From assembly GCF_018304825.1 (NCBI RefSeq), contig NZ_CP072648.1, positions 1,037,501-1,101,500 of the forward strand: a DNA stretch of 64,000 bases. Direction: 5' to 3'. Source of the DNA: Chloracidobacterium validum. GTDB lineage: Bacteria > Acidobacteriota > Blastocatellia > Chloracidobacteriales > Chloracidobacteriaceae. A model generated the notes under the pieces. That model was given only the letters and a program-made list of their open reading frames with translations. It ran no database searches and was not told the DNA's origin. Positions 23,109-31,988 of the stretch are shown here, one piece after another. A program made the position numbers and the translations under genes. The first letter of the stretch is position 1. Each line of letters begins with the position of its first letter.

Positions 23109-24467
23109 CTAGGCGCGTGGTGTGACCGTGAAGGTTGGAATACTACCGCCGCCAGCGCTCACATTGATGACGGCGCTTTGCGAGGTGCGCACAACGGCGC
23201 CGGCAATCTGGCCCCCGAGGTAAAACGGGTTGACGTTGTATTTCATGGGGTGAAAGTCAAATCCCCCATCTGCCTGGCGTACTGGAAACAGCTCGACCGG
23301 GGTGGGAACGCGCTGTTGCACGACCCACAAAGCATCATCCGTGACCGCCTGCCGGAGGGCCTGTGCCCAAACCGTGTCATCCGTTTCGCTGCCGACATAG
23401 ACATTCGTGCCGCCGTAGGCATCGGCTGGCTTGAGCACGAACTCCGTCCGGTGGCGCACAACATAGTCACAGAGGTCCACCCGCTCCCCGGTGGGTAAAA
23501 GTGTATGCTGTTCGGTAACGATGCGTGTCCAAGGAAGGTGGTTGAGGAGACATTGCTGCGCTTCCTCTGGGAGAAAGGCGATGTGTGCCGGATCCGTCAG
23601 AAATGCAAAAAACGCTTTGTTTTCACTGACCCGGCAACGAAATGAGTTGATGAAGCAGGCAGCTCTGGTTTCGTAGGCGGTGGTGAACGCTCGCGTTTCG
23701 TCTAGCTTGGTCAAGAGTTCACTGGTCACGACGCGCCGGTACACAATATCCAACCGCGTATCTCCAGCGTAGAGTTGCCCCTGCCGCAACTCAACCTCCC
23801 GTGGGTCGGCAATGACGGACGGGTAGCCCTGAGCGATGAAGTAGTCCCGCAGGATAATCTGGTCGGCAGAGGTGCGAACATCCGTCCAGTCCACAATACC
23901 AATCGTGGGATGAGTCTTTCCGCCAAAGTCCCGGTAGGCTCTAAGCAAAGCCGCCAGCAAGGCTGGGCGCGGTTCATCTGGTTCAAGCTGATAGCGTTCG
24001 GCAAAGCGCCGTAGGATAGATAAGCCAAGGTAGATTTCCGTCATGGCGGCCGCATAGCCGATGCCAGCCGGCGCGTCGTGGTTGAATTCCAGGAAAAGCA
24101 CGCCATCTGGCGTGGGGAAGGCATCCAGGCGTGTCCACACCACGGCATCCTCGTAGCCAGGATTCACCCGGAGAAGCTTTCGCTCCCGGTCCTGAATGTG
24201 GAGAGCCTCGTAAAGTTGTTCGTGGTTGCCCCCAAATAAACCTTTCTCGGCCAGGAGCGCTGCCCGAAGAACACTTGCCGCAGCCGACTCAAGCTGTCGT
24301 CGTTGAGATTGGGAGACGAGGTATGGCCGCAGGTGAACCGGCATCGCTTTGCCGGCAAACAAAATCCCACGGGCAACAAGCGCCGCGTCGAGTTGGTTGG
24401 CGTCAGCGCTCGCGCCACGTGGGTCATCCGTGATGAGTTGGTGAAAATCGTCAACCGCAGTCTGCAT
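23109..24467 (-). CDS. Circularly permuted ATP-grasp family protein
   Basis: A 452-residue protein resembling circularly permuted ATP-grasp enzymes and the glutathionylspermidine-synthase family. LFLEFNHDAPAGIGYA (about 125-140) corresponds to the metal/substrate segment, FVLKPADAYGGTNVYVG (about 340-356) to the ATP-grasp Lys and Gly-rich loop, and RTSQSAVINVSAGGGSIPTF closes the domain. Such enzymes form amide or peptide bonds with ATP. No second domain is present. ATG 24467 is chosen over a TTG at 24479. It begins 18 bases after the DUF4870 gene, so it may be cotranscribed with it. Confidence 0.72.
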   Translation of the reverse strand: MQTAVDDFHQLITDDPRGASADANQLDAALVARGILFAGKAMPVHLRPYLVSQSQRRQLESAAASVLRAALLAEKGLFGGNHEQLYEALHIQDRERKLLRVNPGYEDAVVWTRLDAFPTPDGVLFLEFNHDAPAGIGYAAAMTEIYLGLSILRRFAERYQLEPDEPRPALLAALLRAYRDFGGKTHPTIGIVDWTDVRTSADQIILRDYFIAQGYPSVIADPREVELRQGQLYAGDTRLDIVYRRVVTSELLTKLDETRAFTTAYETRAACFINSFRCRVSENKAFFAFLTDPAHIAFLPEEAQQCLLNHLPWTRIVTEQHTLLPTGERVDLCDYVVRHRTEFVLKPADAYGGTNVYVGSETDDTVWAQALRQAVTDDALWVVQQRVPTPVELFPVRQADGGFDFHPMKYNVNPFYLGGQIAGAVVRTSQSAVINVSAGGGSIPTFTVTPRA

Positions 24468-24485
24468 CCACCCGCCCAAGGTCGC

Positions 24486-26230: not shown

Positions 26231-27973
26231 CTAAGGCGACGGCGAAGGGATTTCAGTGAGGTGGAAAACCTGGATAAGCGTGCGTGGTGGTTGTCGTTCG
26301 ATGGTCAGGTAGGCGCGTGCCACCGGTACCCAGGCATCGTCAAGTATCATACCGGCTGGTTGATATTCAGCAATTGGTAATCCGTCCGAAACAAGCGAAA
26401 TCTTTCCAGATGAGTGAAAGAAGGTCACAAACTGTCCGTGGTTGTTCACCGCGTAGATTGGCTCGCCCAAGTCCATTTCCGCCAATGCTTGGTTTTTGGC
26501 AAAGGTAACGAGCCGCATGGCTTGCTGATTGCCGTCTCCGAAAAGGATTGTGTGAAAATCACCGCCGACCTGTGAGCGCATAACCGTCAGTGCTGGCGAT
26601 GGCAGGCTTGCCTGATATTTGACGCTGCCCTGAGCATCCAGACAAGTGATCGTCGGACGGATTGGACCGGAATTGACCAAGATGTCATCGTCACTCAGGG
26701 CCACGATGTGGGGGGGCTGCAAGTAGTTGCACAGCGCAATTTCCCAAAGTTGCCGCCCTTCCAGCGAGTAGCCGGCCGCCTGGGTATGGCTGGCTAGGAT
26801 GAGCAGCGTTTCAGAGGGCGTAACCGCCAGACTCTTGACTGGAAAGCGAACCTGGAACAGTCGCTGTGGCGTGACCGCGCCAGCGCGCATGGCATAGAGA
26901 CTCTGGTTCGTTGCAAAGTAGCTGGTTGTGGCGGCAAGGCTTGGCGTGGCGGCAGCCGTGATCCGCTCCGGCAGGAAATAGGGAACGAAGCGCCGCCGCT
27001 CAAGCTCAAGAAATCCGGTTGTGCGGTCATCAGCAATATAGACTGTTGGCCGCTGCGCCGGGTTCAGAACAAAGAGCCGCTGGCTCCCCGCCAGCTCAAC
27101 CGTGAACCAGGGTTCGAGGCGTTGCGCCTGTTCAAGGTTTGGCGTGTCCACCTGGGGGCTTACTAGTGACGTGGCTGGTAAGCTCGTGGGGGTTGATGGT
27201 GTGAGCTGCGCGTCCAGCGCCTGCCAGAGGTCTTGAGCTGATTTGACCCGCTCTCTCGGCGACTTGCAGAGCAGGGCGGACACGAGCGGCCGGACCTGCT
27301 CTGGGATTGGACGTAAATCCGGGGGCTGCTTGGCGTGCTTGGCAAACAACTCCTCTGGCAAGCCATGAAACGGCCGGTCGCCCGTGAGGATTTCATAGAA
27401 AATAATGCCGAGCGAATAGAGGTCGCTGGCATAGGTTGAAAAGTCATAAAACTGCTCAGGGGCCATGTAGGCCGGTGAGCCGTTGGGTTTTTGCTGATCA
27501 AAAACATTTGCCAGGTGGTTGGCAATGCCAAGGTCAGCCACTTTATATGTCACGGTGCCAGTTGACGCATCGGGAAAGACAAGGATGTTTTCGGGCTTGA
27601 GATCGCGGTGGAGGATTTGTTGGCGGTGCGCGTAATCCAACCCGAGCGTTACGTCGCGTAGGACGTGTAGGGCTTCTGGGACGGGCAGCTTCCCCCGCTC
27701 ATTCAGGACATCCCGTAAACTCCCGCCAGCGGCATACTCAAGCACAAGTTTATTGCGCTGGTTGCCTTGGCCATAAATCACGTCAAAGCAACGAACGATA
27801 TTTGGATGCTGAAGCGCAATGAGTGACGAGAGTTCACGGAAAAAGAGATGGGCGGCCTTGCCGCCGCCCAGGAATTCCTTGACCGCATAGAGATCGCCAG
27901 TCGTCGAATCCCGCGCTAGGTGAACGATGGCGTGCGCTCCACTACCAATGACCTTGAGAACTTCATATACCAT
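26231..27973 (-). CDS. Ser/Thr protein kinase with C-terminal propeller-like domain
   Basis: A 580-residue kinase. The N-terminal catalytic domain (about 1-265) shows GSGAHAIVH (P-loop), YAVKEFL (Lys), HRDLKPENIL (catalytic loop), ADLGIAN (DLG replaces DFG) and GSPAYMAPEQF. A linker (about 265-310) precedes a beta-rich region (about 315-575) that looks like a WD/PQQ-type propeller. There is no transmembrane segment, so it is probably cytosolic. ATG 27973 is used; a TTG two codons earlier is possible. It lies 93 bases after the V4R gene and is followed by the 62-aa gene and htrA. A kinase in this position parallels the kinase at the end of the cyanobacterial slr0144-slr0152 operon (from memory). 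Confidence 0.9.
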   Translation of the reverse strand: MVYEVLKVIGSGAHAIVHLARDSTTGDLYAVKEFLGGGKAAHLFFRELSSLIALQHPNIVRCFDVIYGQGNQRNKLVLEYAAGGSLRDVLNERGKLPVPEALHVLRDVTLGLDYAHRQQILHRDLKPENILVFPDASTGTVTYKVADLGIANHLANVFDQQKPNGSPAYMAPEQFYDFSTYASDLYSLGIIFYEILTGDRPFHGLPEELFAKHAKQPPDLRPIPEQVRPLVSALLCKSPRERVKSAQDLWQALDAQLTPSTPTSLPATSLVSPQVDTPNLEQAQRLEPWFTVELAGSQRLFVLNPAQRPTVYIADDRTTGFLELERRRFVPYFLPERITAAATPSLAATTSYFATNQSLYAMRAGAVTPQRLFQVRFPVKSLAVTPSETLLILASHTQAAGYSLEGRQLWEIALCNYLQPPHIVALSDDDILVNSGPIRPTITCLDAQGSVKYQASLPSPALTVMRSQVGGDFHTILFGDGNQQAMRLVTFAKNQALAEMDLGEPIYAVNNHGQFVTFFHSSGKISLVSDGLPIAEYQPAGMILDDAWVPVARAYLTIERQPPRTLIQVFHLTEIPSPSP

Positions 27974-28072
27974 AGGCAATGCCTGCTGAAACCGTAGGCC
28001 AATCGGTAAGGTTCATGCGGAAAAGGCCACAGGATTGAGATGCGGCTGACAACCGCATGGAGCAAGCGCCGG

Positions 28073-28717
28073 CTAGACGCTTGCTACAACTTGCTCGTGG
28101 GTCAGCCCGCCTTTGATTTTCTCATCAATGCCCCGGAGGCGCGCCGCGCCAGTGACCACAAACTGACTGGCTTCAGCGCCCCGTGAGATGCAGGCCGTCT
28201 GAACACAATCAAGGTCCTGACCGCTCATATGACTCATCATGCCAGCCAGGATGCCAGCAATCATCGGGTCTGAAAAATCTTCTTCATCCCGGATGACTTC
28301 GGCAAAGATTGAATCTTCCAGCGTGACGGTGACGATCCCTGTTTCACGGGCTTGGGCAACGTCAATGGTCATCAATCCCCAGCCATGATAAACAAAGTAC
28401 TCCCTGAAAAACCGCAAAAACATGGAGACAGGCATTTCCCTGAGCTGTAGGTTGCCCACGGTCTGTGCCTCACGCTCCAAGCGGCGCATGATGCGCTCAC
28501 CCCAGATGCGGCCACAGGTCTTGAAGATAACGGGCCACGCCGGACCTGCTTCATCCTTGACGGCGGTGTAAACGCCCGTCAAGAAGTCGGTTGAAAGAAG
28601 GCACAACCGCGTTTTGGCGGGATTCCACAACACGCCTTCGCGGAGGTCGAAGCCCAGCCGGGCTTCATCAAAAAAGCTTTCCAGTCCTTCCAGTAAATCC
28701 GTGGTAGCCTGCATCAT
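28073..28717 (-). CDS. V4R-domain protein (copy 1)
   Basis: A 214-residue protein built on a 4-vinyl-reductase-like (V4R) domain, the fold shared with BchJ and with small-molecule-binding domains of some regulators. Markers are the helical N-terminus, the GRIWGERIMRRL helix, a FVYHGWG strand and the Cys pair near the end (DCVQTACISRGAEASQFVV). The last Cys of the usual C..C...G...C-x-F pattern is Ala. The start overlaps the stop of the upstream phycobiliprotein-like gene (ATGA), a strong hint that the two proteins act together. Ligand unknown; tetrapyrrole-type ligands are suspected for the family. Confidence 0.8.
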   Translation of the reverse strand: MMQATTDLLEGLESFFDEARLGFDLREGVLWNPAKTRLCLLSTDFLTGVYTAVKDEAGPAWPVIFKTCGRIWGERIMRRLEREAQTVGNLQLREMPVSMFLRFFREYFVYHGWGLMTIDVAQARETGIVTVTLEDSIFAEVIRDEEDFSDPMIAGILAGMMSHMSGQDLDCVQTACISRGAEASQFVVTGAARLRGIDEKIKGGLTHEQVVASV

Positions 28718-29313
28718 GCGCCATACTCCTCTGAAAGTACATTCATGGCGAGGTCAAGGTAGGGCGCCATCAGCCGAAAACTGGCGGCGTCAAGTTCCTG
28801 CTGACACTCGCGCTTGACAACATAGTACATGTGATAGATGGATTTGACCTTACCCTTGAATGGCTTGAGTTTCGCGGCCAGCGTGGGGTCAATCTTGGCA
28901 AATGCCTCACGCATGGCTTCGGTCTGACCATGTTCTGGAAAATCAAAAGCCTGAAGGATGGTTTTCATCCAAATCAGTAGCTTATCCTCGAACCAGCGCG
29001 TGTCGTCAATCAACATGGCGAGTGTCGCATAGGCGAGCACATAGCGCGCGTCACGAACACACTTGGCCGTGGCATGGTCGTGGTGCTGCTCGTAGGGATA
29101 CATCGTGTAGATTTCCTTGACGCTGCGTCCGACGATGCCGGTTTCCTTTGCGCGCACGTCCTTGGCAGCCGCAATCTGCGGCGACAGATTTGGATAGATG
29201 CTTTCTAACTTGGCAAACTCAGCGTCAGTAAAGTACTTGCCCTCAGCTTGACGGAAGATGCTGGCCAAGTCAGGGTGACGGTGAGGTGAAAGTACGGTGG
29301 CCGGTGATGTCAT
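28714..29313 (-). CDS. Phycobiliprotein-like (allophycocyanin/globin-fold) protein
   Basis: A 199-residue all-helical protein resembling phycobilisome subunits. The key segment ATAKCVRDARYVLAYATLAM (residues 81-100) aligns with the chromophore segment of allophycocyanin (CLRDxxYYLRxVTY). Cys85, Arg87 and Asp88 match the bilin-attachment Cys84 and the Arg86/Asp87 pair that hold the bilin in known phycobiliproteins. The following DDTRWFEDKLLIWMKTILQAF matches the next two helices. The N-terminal FTDAEFAKLESIYPNLSPQI fits helix A/B. It is longer than a classical subunit (about 160 aa), mainly at both ends. It is translationally coupled (ATGA) to a V4R gene. Homology is inferred by eye; bilin binding is unproven. 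Confidence 0.72.
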   Translation of the reverse strand: MTSPATVLSPHRHPDLASIFRQAEGKYFTDAEFAKLESIYPNLSPQIAAAKDVRAKETGIVGRSVKEIYTMYPYEQHHDHATAKCVRDARYVLAYATLAMLIDDTRWFEDKLLIWMKTILQAFDFPEHGQTEAMREAFAKIDPTLAAKLKPFKGKVKSIYHMYYVVKRECQQELDAASFRLMAPYLDLAMNVLSEEYGA

Positions 29314-29428: not shown

Positions 29429-29938
29429 CTAGTTTTTGGGGTTTGATGCCCGGATGGCGCTTTCAGTCGCTGCGCGTAAAAAATCACTTGTCCCAGAGCT
29501 TGACCAAGGGGAGCGCTTGACGGCGCTCCCACCCGGATTCCAGGGAATGGCTGTGAAGAACTCCGCGGCGCTAACTTCCTCGGCCACAGCGACCGCCGTG
29601 GCCGTCGCGACGGCGGCCACAGCGGCCGGTTGGGGAGTCGGCTGCGTGACCGGCGGCGTGGCCATTGGCAACGGCGGAAGTCCACCCGTCGTTCGGCTGG
29701 CGGCCGTGAGCCGGGTTGTGGATGGGCGAACAATCGCTGAACGAAGTGGAGCGCCACCCCGTTGCCCCCAGGGAACTTGTTCCGTGAAGAAGGCTTCGGC
29801 CGTGTCCTCCAAGCTCAGGGCGACCCGCGCGCGTTGCATCGCCAAGTTGAGTTTTTCACGGCAGCGCGCAATGCGCGCCAGCAGGGCTTCCTGCTCATCG
29901 AGCAAAGCTTGCGGGAGCGAGAGACTAAAGGTTGCCAT
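29429..29938 (-). CDS. Hypothetical protein with a duplicated FFT..PW motif
   Basis: A 169-residue protein without a known domain. Residues 1-45 form a helical, probably coiled-coil segment (ALLDEQEALLARIARCREKLNLAMQRA). A short motif then appears twice: AEAFFTEQVPWGQRGG (about 48-63) and AAEFFTAIPWNPGG (about 124-137), separated by a Pro/Ala/Val-rich linker. The duplicated motif and the operon direction argue for this strand rather than the overlapping 188-codon frame on the plus strand. It lies between the phycobiliprotein-like gene and the second V4R gene. The paired motifs look like docking peptides. Confidence 0.65.
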   Translation of the reverse strand: MATFSLSLPQALLDEQEALLARIARCREKLNLAMQRARVALSLEDTAEAFFTEQVPWGQRGGAPLRSAIVRPSTTRLTAASRTTGGLPPLPMATPPVTQPTPQPAAVAAVATATAVAVAEEVSAAEFFTAIPWNPGGSAVKRSPWSSSGTSDFLRAATESAIRASNPKN

Positions 29939-30003: not shown

Positions 30004-30666
30004 TCAGTCAACCAACTTGGTCATGATTTCCTGGGCGGTCGCGCCTTCCCGCCGCCAGAACTCAGCCGCGTTGACTTTCTTCTGGGAGCCGACGATGAAC
30101 TTGCAGCAGTCGTTGCCCATCGAATAGCACTGAACCTCGATGCCGCCACGTTCTTCACGGTCAAACACGCTGAAAACACCCGCAAACATCCCGGCGTACA
30201 TATAGCAAACGGGCTTGCCAACCTGCTCCATGGCTTTGGCCACGGCGGAGTTCTTGATAGTGACGAACACCATGCCTTGTTTTTCAAAACTAAAGTCAAT
30301 CGCCCAGGCTCCCCAGCCTTCGATGGTCAGCGGCCACCACCAGGATTCGAGCACAAACTTGCGATTCATTTGCCAGATGTCGAGCTTCCCGCCGCCGAAC
30401 TCGTGACGCATTTTCTCGGCAAAGCGCTTCATGTCGCTCACACCCCATTCGTAACCGCATTTGTACATAACGAGGTTTGAGGCATCGCCAACTTCGTCAT
30501 TCAGCCCGGTGTGCAGGCTGGCAATGAAGTCTTCCGAGGCGTAAACCCCGCGCTGCCCATCGCGGAGCCGAATCGTGCGCGTTCGCGCGTCACGCGCGAG
30601 AAATTCTTCAGGGACGAAATAGTTGTGGTAGTTCTTGATGCCACCATCGGCTACGTTGATTGCCAT
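30004..30666 (-). CDS. V4R-domain protein (copy 2)
   Basis: A 220-residue V4R protein. It has the helical start with LHTGLNDEVGDASNLVMYKCGYEWG, a FVLESWWWPLTIEGWGAW segment, and the complete C-terminal Cys pattern CYSMGNDCCKFIVG typical of V4R domains. ATG at 30666 has GGAGTAAC-like sequence just upstream (reverse strand of TTACTCC). It is 65 bases ahead of the FFT..PW protein. Compared with copy 1 the Cys motif is intact, so the two probably have different ligands or partners. Confidence 0.82.
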   Translation of the reverse strand: MAINVADGGIKNYHNYFVPEEFLARDARTRTIRLRDGQRGVYASEDFIASLHTGLNDEVGDASNLVMYKCGYEWGVSDMKRFAEKMRHEFGGGKLDIWQMNRKFVLESWWWPLTIEGWGAWAIDFSFEKQGMVFVTIKNSAVAKAMEQVGKPVCYMYAGMFAGVFSVFDREERGGIEVQCYSMGNDCCKFIVGSQKKVNAAEFWRREGATAQEIMTKLVD

Positions 30667-30814: not shown

Positions 30815-31288
30815 TCAGGAGGCCGACGCTGCTAGCTTGGTCATATCAAAATCTTCGCCTTCAAGCTCCAGAATTCTTGACTTCGTAATGATTTTTCCTC
30901 GCTCGATAAGGACACGCCCGTCGCGCGGATGCATGATCGGAATCTCAGCGCGTTTCCCGACCAGAACGCGCAAGTCCTCGATATCTTGAAGGTACATCCC
31001 CTCGGGTAGTTCAACAACAACGCCGTCACCGATCACACGGGCTTGGCAAGAGAGGCGGGAACGGGCCGTCGCCCCAGTGATCGTGCCGAGCGTACGGATT
31101 TCGCGCTCCGTGCGTGGTGTGAGCGCTTCTTCACCCCGGATAACAAAAACGTGGCAGGTCGCACATAGCCCCATGCCTCCGCAGGCCATGGCGACTTCGC
31201 ACTGTGAGGCGAGCAGGGTGTCCAGTACCTTGGTGTCGGTCTTGACTGAAATCGTCTTGTTGATTGGCTGTAAGGTCAGGGACTTCAT
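30815..31288 (-). CDS. [2Fe-2S] ferredoxin with C-terminal extension
   Basis: A 157-residue ferredoxin. ACGGMGLCATCHVFV gives Cys-x5-Cys-x2-Cys and a fourth Cys lies in LSCQARV, the spacing of adrenodoxin-like [2Fe-2S] proteins rather than plant-type ones. Residues 105-157 form an extra domain (RAEIPIMHPRDGRVLIERGKIITKS) absent from minimal ferredoxins. ATG 31288 has GGAG eight bases upstream and lies just inside the end of the FNR-like gene (stop at 31293), so the reductase and ferredoxin are made together. It probably passes electrons from that flavoprotein to a cluster protein. Confidence 0.88.
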   Translation of the reverse strand: MKSLTLQPINKTISVKTDTKVLDTLLASQCEVAMACGGMGLCATCHVFVIRGEEALTPRTEREIRTLGTITGATARSRLSCQARVIGDGVVVELPEGMYLQDIEDLRVLVGKRAEIPIMHPRDGRVLIERGKIITKSRILELEGEDFDMTKLAASAS

Positions 31289-31292
31289 CGTG

Positions 31293-31988
31293 CTAGCTCC
31301 AGCGCTCAACGAACGTGCTTTGCTTTGGAATTTCAGCCGCTTGAAGAAGTTGTTGGTAGAACTTTACTTCAGCGAACTCGCCGGCTGCGTAAAATTTTGT
31401 CTTTGGGTTCTCAAGGTAAAGACTCCGTAGCATGACCGGCGTGATGCGCCCCAGTCCGCCAGCCCAACCGGCCGGTCGGTTGGGCTGATTGAGCAGCACC
31501 ACACGGGTCAGTGGGCTGTTTTGTTCGAAGTGCTTGAACTCATTGTCGTAGAGGACTTGGTCTAAGCTCGTTACCTCGTGAAAGAGTGTCATCTTCCGCT
31601 GCGGCTGACGGATGAGGATATAGTAAAAAAAGCTACGCGCGGCGGGAATACAGTAGTCTGAACCCAGAAAACAGACCGGATCCAGGGTGTCGGTCTGGAG
31701 TTTGAGTTGTCCCATTGGCTCACCAATAGAAACTGTGTCACCAATTTGTGCCTGGTCGTAAAACTGCGTGCCAAAGTTGCCCGTCCGCTTGACTGTGAAT
31801 TGGAAGTATTTCTGGTCGTGGGGCGAGGAGCTGATGGTGAGCGGCGCTTGGCATTCGGCGTTGAGGTGGACAACCGTAAACTGCCCTGGTGTGAAGCTGA
31901 AGGGATGGTCACCAAACTCAAGGATAAACGAACGCACGTCTGGCGTTTCCTGAAGAATGCGGCGAATCGTGTAGGGCTTGGTTTCCAT
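31293..31988 (-). CDS. FNR-like flavin/NAD(P) oxidoreductase
   Basis: A 231-residue protein with the ferredoxin-NADP-reductase two-domain layout. The FAD domain (1-100) has FTPGQFTVVHL and PLTISSSP, where most relatives have R-x-Y-S/T; the Arg and Tyr that contact FAD are missing. The NAD(P) domain begins CFLGSDYCIPAARSFFYYIL and ends KFYAAGEFAEVKFYQQLL, lacking the standard CGP motif. So it is a divergent member that may use a different cofactor or bind it weakly. Its stop nearly touches the ferredoxin start. ATG 31988. Confidence 0.8.
   Translation of the reverse strand: METKPYTIRRILQETPDVRSFILEFGDHPFSFTPGQFTVVHLNAECQAPLTISSSPHDQKYFQFTVKRTGNFGTQFYDQAQIGDTVSIGEPMGQLKLQTDTLDPVCFLGSDYCIPAARSFFYYILIRQPQRKMTLFHEVTSLDQVLYDNEFKHFEQNSPLTRVVLLNQPNRPAGWAGGLGRITPVMLRSLYLENPKTKFYAAGEFAEVKFYQQLLQAAEIPKQSTFVERWS

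Follow-up and report, generated by a model that had tools for sequence, protein, structure and literature searches.

The window analysed here, a 64,000-nucleotide stretch of the Chloracidobacterium validum genome, encodes on its minus strand, at 28714..29313, a phycobiliprotein-like globin of 199 amino acids which is a confirmed member of the already known BBAG-1 family. Comparison with solved and curated relatives confirms the ORF as a genuine, well-conserved cousin of the cyanobacterial phycobiliproteins in a photosynthetic acidobacterium without phycobilisomes, and a working covalent bilin site, as predicted from its conserved motif, is well supported. The best overall explanation, to which we assign a probability of roughly 0.7, is a BBAG-1 protein that would carry a bilin on Cys85 attached without a lyase, the bilin being finished by a native reductase, and that would act in a non-antenna role.

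The globin and its putative bilin site

The ORF starts at an ATG, and the plus strand over the same interval is interrupted by stops. Pfam PF00502 (Phycobilisome, cut-off 22.2) matches residues 23-188 with 72 bits and E 6.9e-20. The best solved relatives are the allophycocyanin beta chains 8imi_H (E 5.4e-8) and 1b33_B (E 1.4e-7), whose CVRD or CIRD aligns with the CVRD of the globin. A profile of four Chloracidobacterium copies was compared by hhalign with a profile of seven antenna chains, giving a probability of 97.8% and E 1.2e-12, with Cys placed on Cys. The alignments to the solved chains and to the antenna profile agree that Cys85, Arg87 and Asp88 occupy the positions of the bilin-site CxRD, in the helix RDARYVLAYATLAM, as a sequence-only reading of this DNA had stated, and the profile evidence likewise agrees with the globin/phycobiliprotein fold that it had assumed. 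Position 86 is Val, and the codons of C85-V86-R87-D88, computed from the minus-strand ORF coordinates, lie at 29050..29061. Only two cysteines are present, at 85 and 170. When the globin sequence was shuffled, CxRD appeared in 115 of 20000 shuffles (0.6%), counted anywhere in the sequence with no column required. An AlphaFold2 model built from 4 sequences had a pLDDT of 45.9 and was used for no claim.

Conservation of Cys85 among close homologues was checked in seven Chloracidobacterium genomes, counting the window's own (G000, 3.66 Mb in two contigs), and CVRD is invariant in all of them. Three named relatives at 85-86% identity are Chloracidobacterium or Blastocatellia MAGs. Comparison of the globin gene of G000 with those of G002, G004 and G005 gave dN values of 0.084-0.093 and dS values of 1.4-1.7, figures that apply to pairs among these four genomes only. 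Since dN is about 0.09 at a dS above 1.4, the globin is under strong purifying selection. An invariant CVRD at such high synonymous divergence speaks against loss of the chromophore, by which the globin would now be a structural or interaction partner of V4R proteins only, as does the retention of a bilin reductase in all seven genomes. The missing haem oxygenase (see below) would fit such a loss, and cyanobacterial clusters hold a second related globin lacking CxRD, so chromophore-free versions probably exist; on balance we consider loss of the chromophore unlikely.

Among 396 sampled Acidobacteriota genomes, BLAST detected the globin in Chloracidobacterium only. A profile search added two distant Acidobacteriota matches, of which one is longer and resembles photoglobin. 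In G213 the matching globin has a longer C-terminal region which, judged by eye, is probably B12-binding. Photoglobin (globin plus a B12 domain) and BBAG-2 belong to the same bilin-binding globin superfamily, and BBAG-2 lacks CXRD (PMC10151467). The sole plasmid match to the globin was a cyanobacterial cluster in Acaryochloris, and no BBAG relatives were found in viral contigs.

Distinction from antenna phycobiliproteins

Allophycocyanin and phycocyanin antenna subunits share with the globin both the PF00502 family and the Cys-Arg-Asp site. Unlike them, the globin has no alpha/beta pair, each genome containing a single PF00502 protein, and no CpeS lyase; it is only 17-25% identical to antenna chains and scores below the curated cut-offs. 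The NCBIfam antenna models gave 14.6-30.6 bits against cut-offs of 228-279, the best being apcB with 30.6 bits against 228.15. In a tree of 19 sequences, a split supported at 98.8/100 set all nine antenna-type chains apart from the globins of Chloracidobacterium and of the Acaryochloris clusters. Identity as an antenna subunit (ApcA/B, CpcA/B or CpeA/B) was rejected on the scores, the single PF00502 protein and the tree. The same results, together with the lack of CpeS and the one conserved location of the gene across the genus, weigh heavily against a true antenna phycobiliprotein acquired by recent gene transfer from a cyanobacterium, which we regard as very improbable even though the motif and helix resemble those of ApcB well. 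Nor does the globin appear to be the keeper of a phycobilisome trait, as the sequence-only reading had suggested: published trees place the BBAG-1 lineage as sister to the antenna proteins (PMC10151467), and our own small tree also separates them.

The gene neighbourhood

The gene order is flavoprotein reductase, ferredoxin, V4R, low-complexity protein, BBAG, V4R and kinase, and is the same in the genus wherever the contig covers it; the block running from the reductase through ferredoxin, V4R and BBAG to the second V4R gene is syntenic in six genomes and is cut by a contig end in the seventh. In the window all of these genes lie on the minus strand. The first encodes an FAD/NAD(P) ferredoxin-reductase-like protein of 231 amino acids (31293..31988; PF00970 and PF00175; syntenic in the genus) and overlaps by 17 nt the gene for a 2Fe-2S ferredoxin of 164 amino acids (30815..31309; PF00111, 36.6 bits), which shares 51% identity with its counterpart in the Acaryochloris cluster. 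The V4R-domain protein that follows (220 amino acids, 30004..30666; PF02830, 58.8 bits) matches the first V4R protein there at 42% identity. Between it and the BBAG lies a low-complexity protein of 169 amino acids (29429..29938), conserved in the genus and of no known family (no Pfam or NCBIfam match). It contains two conserved FF-x-PW-like motifs, FFTEQVPW and FFTAIPW, which look like binding peptides. The other V4R-domain protein (214 amino acids, 28073..28717) scores 30.6 bits with PF02830, 0.4 bits below the cut-off of 31, yet is clearly homologous, with 31% identity over 199 amino acids to the second of the two Acaryochloris V4R proteins. In the window, the start of its gene overlaps the stop of the BBAG gene by 4 nt (ATGA). 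Downstream is a Ser/Thr protein kinase (26231..27979; PF00069, 159 bits), also syntenic in the genus; we infer only from its place that it may belong to the BBAG system. Near the cluster, at 23109-24479 of the window, is a circularly permuted ATP-grasp protein with a 33% identical paralogue near the bilin reductase (L021:967-2382), so that V4R genes and an ATP-grasp gene occur at both loci.

The Acaryochloris plasmid cluster consists of V4R, a hypothetical protein, V4R, 2Fe-2S and 'allophycocyanin'. A further plasmid carries a second copy, and the 'allophycocyanin' globins of both copies carry CRRD. The 'hypothetical protein' (L040:4237-4725 and L046:6995-7480) is a second globin-like family protein without CxRD. 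These clusters and their relative slr0144-slr0149 of Synechocystis share with Chloracidobacterium a homologous V4R pair, a ferredoxin and a CxRD globin, the identity between the Chloracidobacterium and Acaryochloris sets being 30-51%. They differ in gene order, in the additional globin without CxRD of the Acaryochloris copies, and in that cyanobacteria have photosystem II, to the assembly of which the slr0144-slr0149-type cluster has been tied.

Membership of the BBAG-1 family

Bilin biosynthesis-associated globins (BBAGs) were defined by Rockwell, Martin and Lagarias (PNAS 2023, PMC10151467). In the clusters that they described, which are related to slr0144-slr0149, the globin is accompanied by two V4R proteins, by an iron-sulphur protein and by a bilin reductase of the pre-PcyA type. 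The globin is assigned to BBAG-1 because its neighbours are a ferredoxin and two V4R proteins. PF00502 and hhalign homology, the CXRD motif and a position in the tree outside the antenna chains agree with this, as does the presence of a putative pre-PcyA type reductase in the genome, which here is the PF05996 protein found at a distant locus in seven of seven genomes. A haem oxygenase in the cluster, a typical but not universal BBAG-1 trait, was not found, the search for PF01126 having given no match in 10 genomes. This is no bar to membership, since the same exception is stated for the genus by PMC10151467, where Chloracidobacterium is named as a carrier of a pre-1 cluster without the usual haem oxygenase and some pre-1 genes are noted to be distant.

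Like other BBAG-1 pre-1 clusters, that of Chloracidobacterium combines a CXRD globin, a 2Fe-2S protein and two V4R genes with a bilin reductase in the genome. It differs in the location of that reductase, next to a third V4R-like gene at a distance of 660 kb, in the overlap of a flavoprotein reductase gene with the ferredoxin gene, and in the low-complexity protein between V4R and BBAG. The sequence-only reading had held that a bound bilin in an organism without phycobilisomes would be new. That claim of novelty fails, since both the family and its occurrence in Chloracidobacterium had been reported in 2023 (PMC10151467); the part of the proposal that stands is the putative covalent site itself, which the family, the conserved motif and the genomic bilin reductase argue for.

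The bilin reductase and the source of the pigment

A search for a bilin reductase, which the sequence-only reading had proposed, found PF05996 in all seven Chloracidobacterium genomes, with 65-70% identity within the genus. In the genome of the window the gene sits at C1:403 kb, separated from the BBAG gene by about 660 kb. The reductase keeps the Asp of the LDxQ motif of PebA/PebB, and the second Asp of those enzymes is replaced by Ser212. In 7/7 genomes it adjoins the third V4R-like gene, whose product scores 28 bits against the cut-off of 31 and is homologous to the window V4R protein. The distant reductase beside this gene is what the present analysis adds to the published picture. The full order at the locus (G000:C1:403240-404700, L021:8241-9699), again in 7/7 genomes, is bilin reductase, third V4R-like gene, a small proline-rich ORF and a ParA-like ATPase. 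A tblastn search found no bilin reductase in phages. A genome of a sister genus (G057, 8.4 Mb) has a 49% identical bilin reductase beside an apparent gatA (L041:9004-9729), and no PF00502 protein was detected in it. Reductase and BBAG are thus not strictly linked, and the reductase may serve some purpose independent of BBAG.

The two other kinds of gene that had been proposed for the search, for a haem oxygenase and a bilin lyase, were not detected in the families searched. Profile searches found no PF01126 haem oxygenase in 10 genomes of the family, so that no known biliverdin-making enzyme is recognised there, and PF10615 was not found in the Chloracidobacterium genomes. Haem-oxygenase-like PF14518 matches in G001 and G006 were discounted as below the cut-off, the one in G006 being, to judge from its coordinates, part of a TPR-type protein. 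The oxygenase search covered these three families. The genus also lacked detectable CpeS-type bilin lyases (PF09367, the one lyase type covered by the search) and phytochrome PHY domains. With a single PF00502 protein per genome and no PHY domain found, no bilin acceptor other than BBAG is recognised. The first look of the genome search can miss genes (the reductases of G001 and G006 were lost once and found in another search), and absences are not proof. Missing data are an unlikely cause of the absent oxygenase, given that three of the Chloracidobacterium genomes consist of just two contigs.

A possible reading, at less than even odds, is a phototroph with a bilin reductase and a bilin-binding globin whose tetrapyrrole arises without a classical haem oxygenase. 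An oxygenase that escaped recognition would be one route, uptake from mat neighbours a second and a ring-opened chlorophyll a third. In the second case, biliverdin or phycocyanobilin would be scavenged from cyanobacterial mat neighbours, the reductase and BBAG having been kept and the oxygenase not. This is a variant of the best explanation which differs in the source of the pigment. The failure to find a PF01126, PF10615 or credible PF14518 oxygenase, and the conservation of reductase and BBAG throughout the genus, are consistent with it; an unrecognised oxygenase is equally possible, since haem oxygenases can show no detectable mutual similarity (PMC10151467). Scavenging is possible, at rather less than even odds.

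The bilin reductases have red chlorophyll catabolite reductase among their relatives, and the V4R proteins have BchJ among theirs. The reductase and globin might instead handle another linear tetrapyrrole, such as a breakdown product of (bacterio)chlorophyll, in keeping with the chlorophototrophy of the genus, the missing haem oxygenase and the departure of the reductase from PebA/PebB at the second Asp. One V4R protein gave a weak match to BchJ (15.8 bits, E 0.009), but this is far below the cut-off of 74.3, and the bilins that a BBAG-1 carrying this motif binds derive from haem (PMC10151467), which makes a chlorophyll product distinctly improbable.

Proposed function

In the explanation that we prefer, a bilin (linear tetrapyrrole) would attach to Cys85 of BBAG with no lyase involved, Arg87 and Asp88 holding it in place. 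It would probably be finished by the native ferredoxin-dependent bilin reductase, with the ferredoxin and the flavoprotein reductase, whose genes lie upstream of BBAG, supplying the electrons. We infer this loading, the electron route and the partnership with the V4R proteins from the genes and from the behaviour of relatives: the BBAG-1 POZ53552, which has the CXRD motif, took up bilin in E. coli without a lyase (PMC10151467). Against the explanation stand the poor loading of POZ53552 and poor activity of the tested pre-1 reductase (PMC10151467), as well as the lack of PF01126, the Ser212 of the reductase and the reductase of G057, a genome in which no PF00502 protein was detected.

BBAG and its two V4R partners would most likely work together as a small module that carries a bilin and serves, in regulation or assembly, either the photosynthetic apparatus or the supply of tetrapyrroles. 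Low fluorescence was recorded for the BBAGs measured, and the functions of the family are as yet unknown (PMC10151467). A physiological role in photosystem or tetrapyrrole upkeep is speculative, being suggested because the cyanobacterial cluster has a reported link to photosystem assembly, and that link is itself treated with caution (PMC10151467).

After 2023 the existence of the BBAG protein will not in itself surprise specialists. What the genus offers is conserved bilin machinery throughout a chlorophototroph without phycobilisomes, which bears on the origins of phycobiliproteins, and the missing haem oxygenase leads to a clear and testable question, namely which pigment sits on Cys85 and where it comes from.
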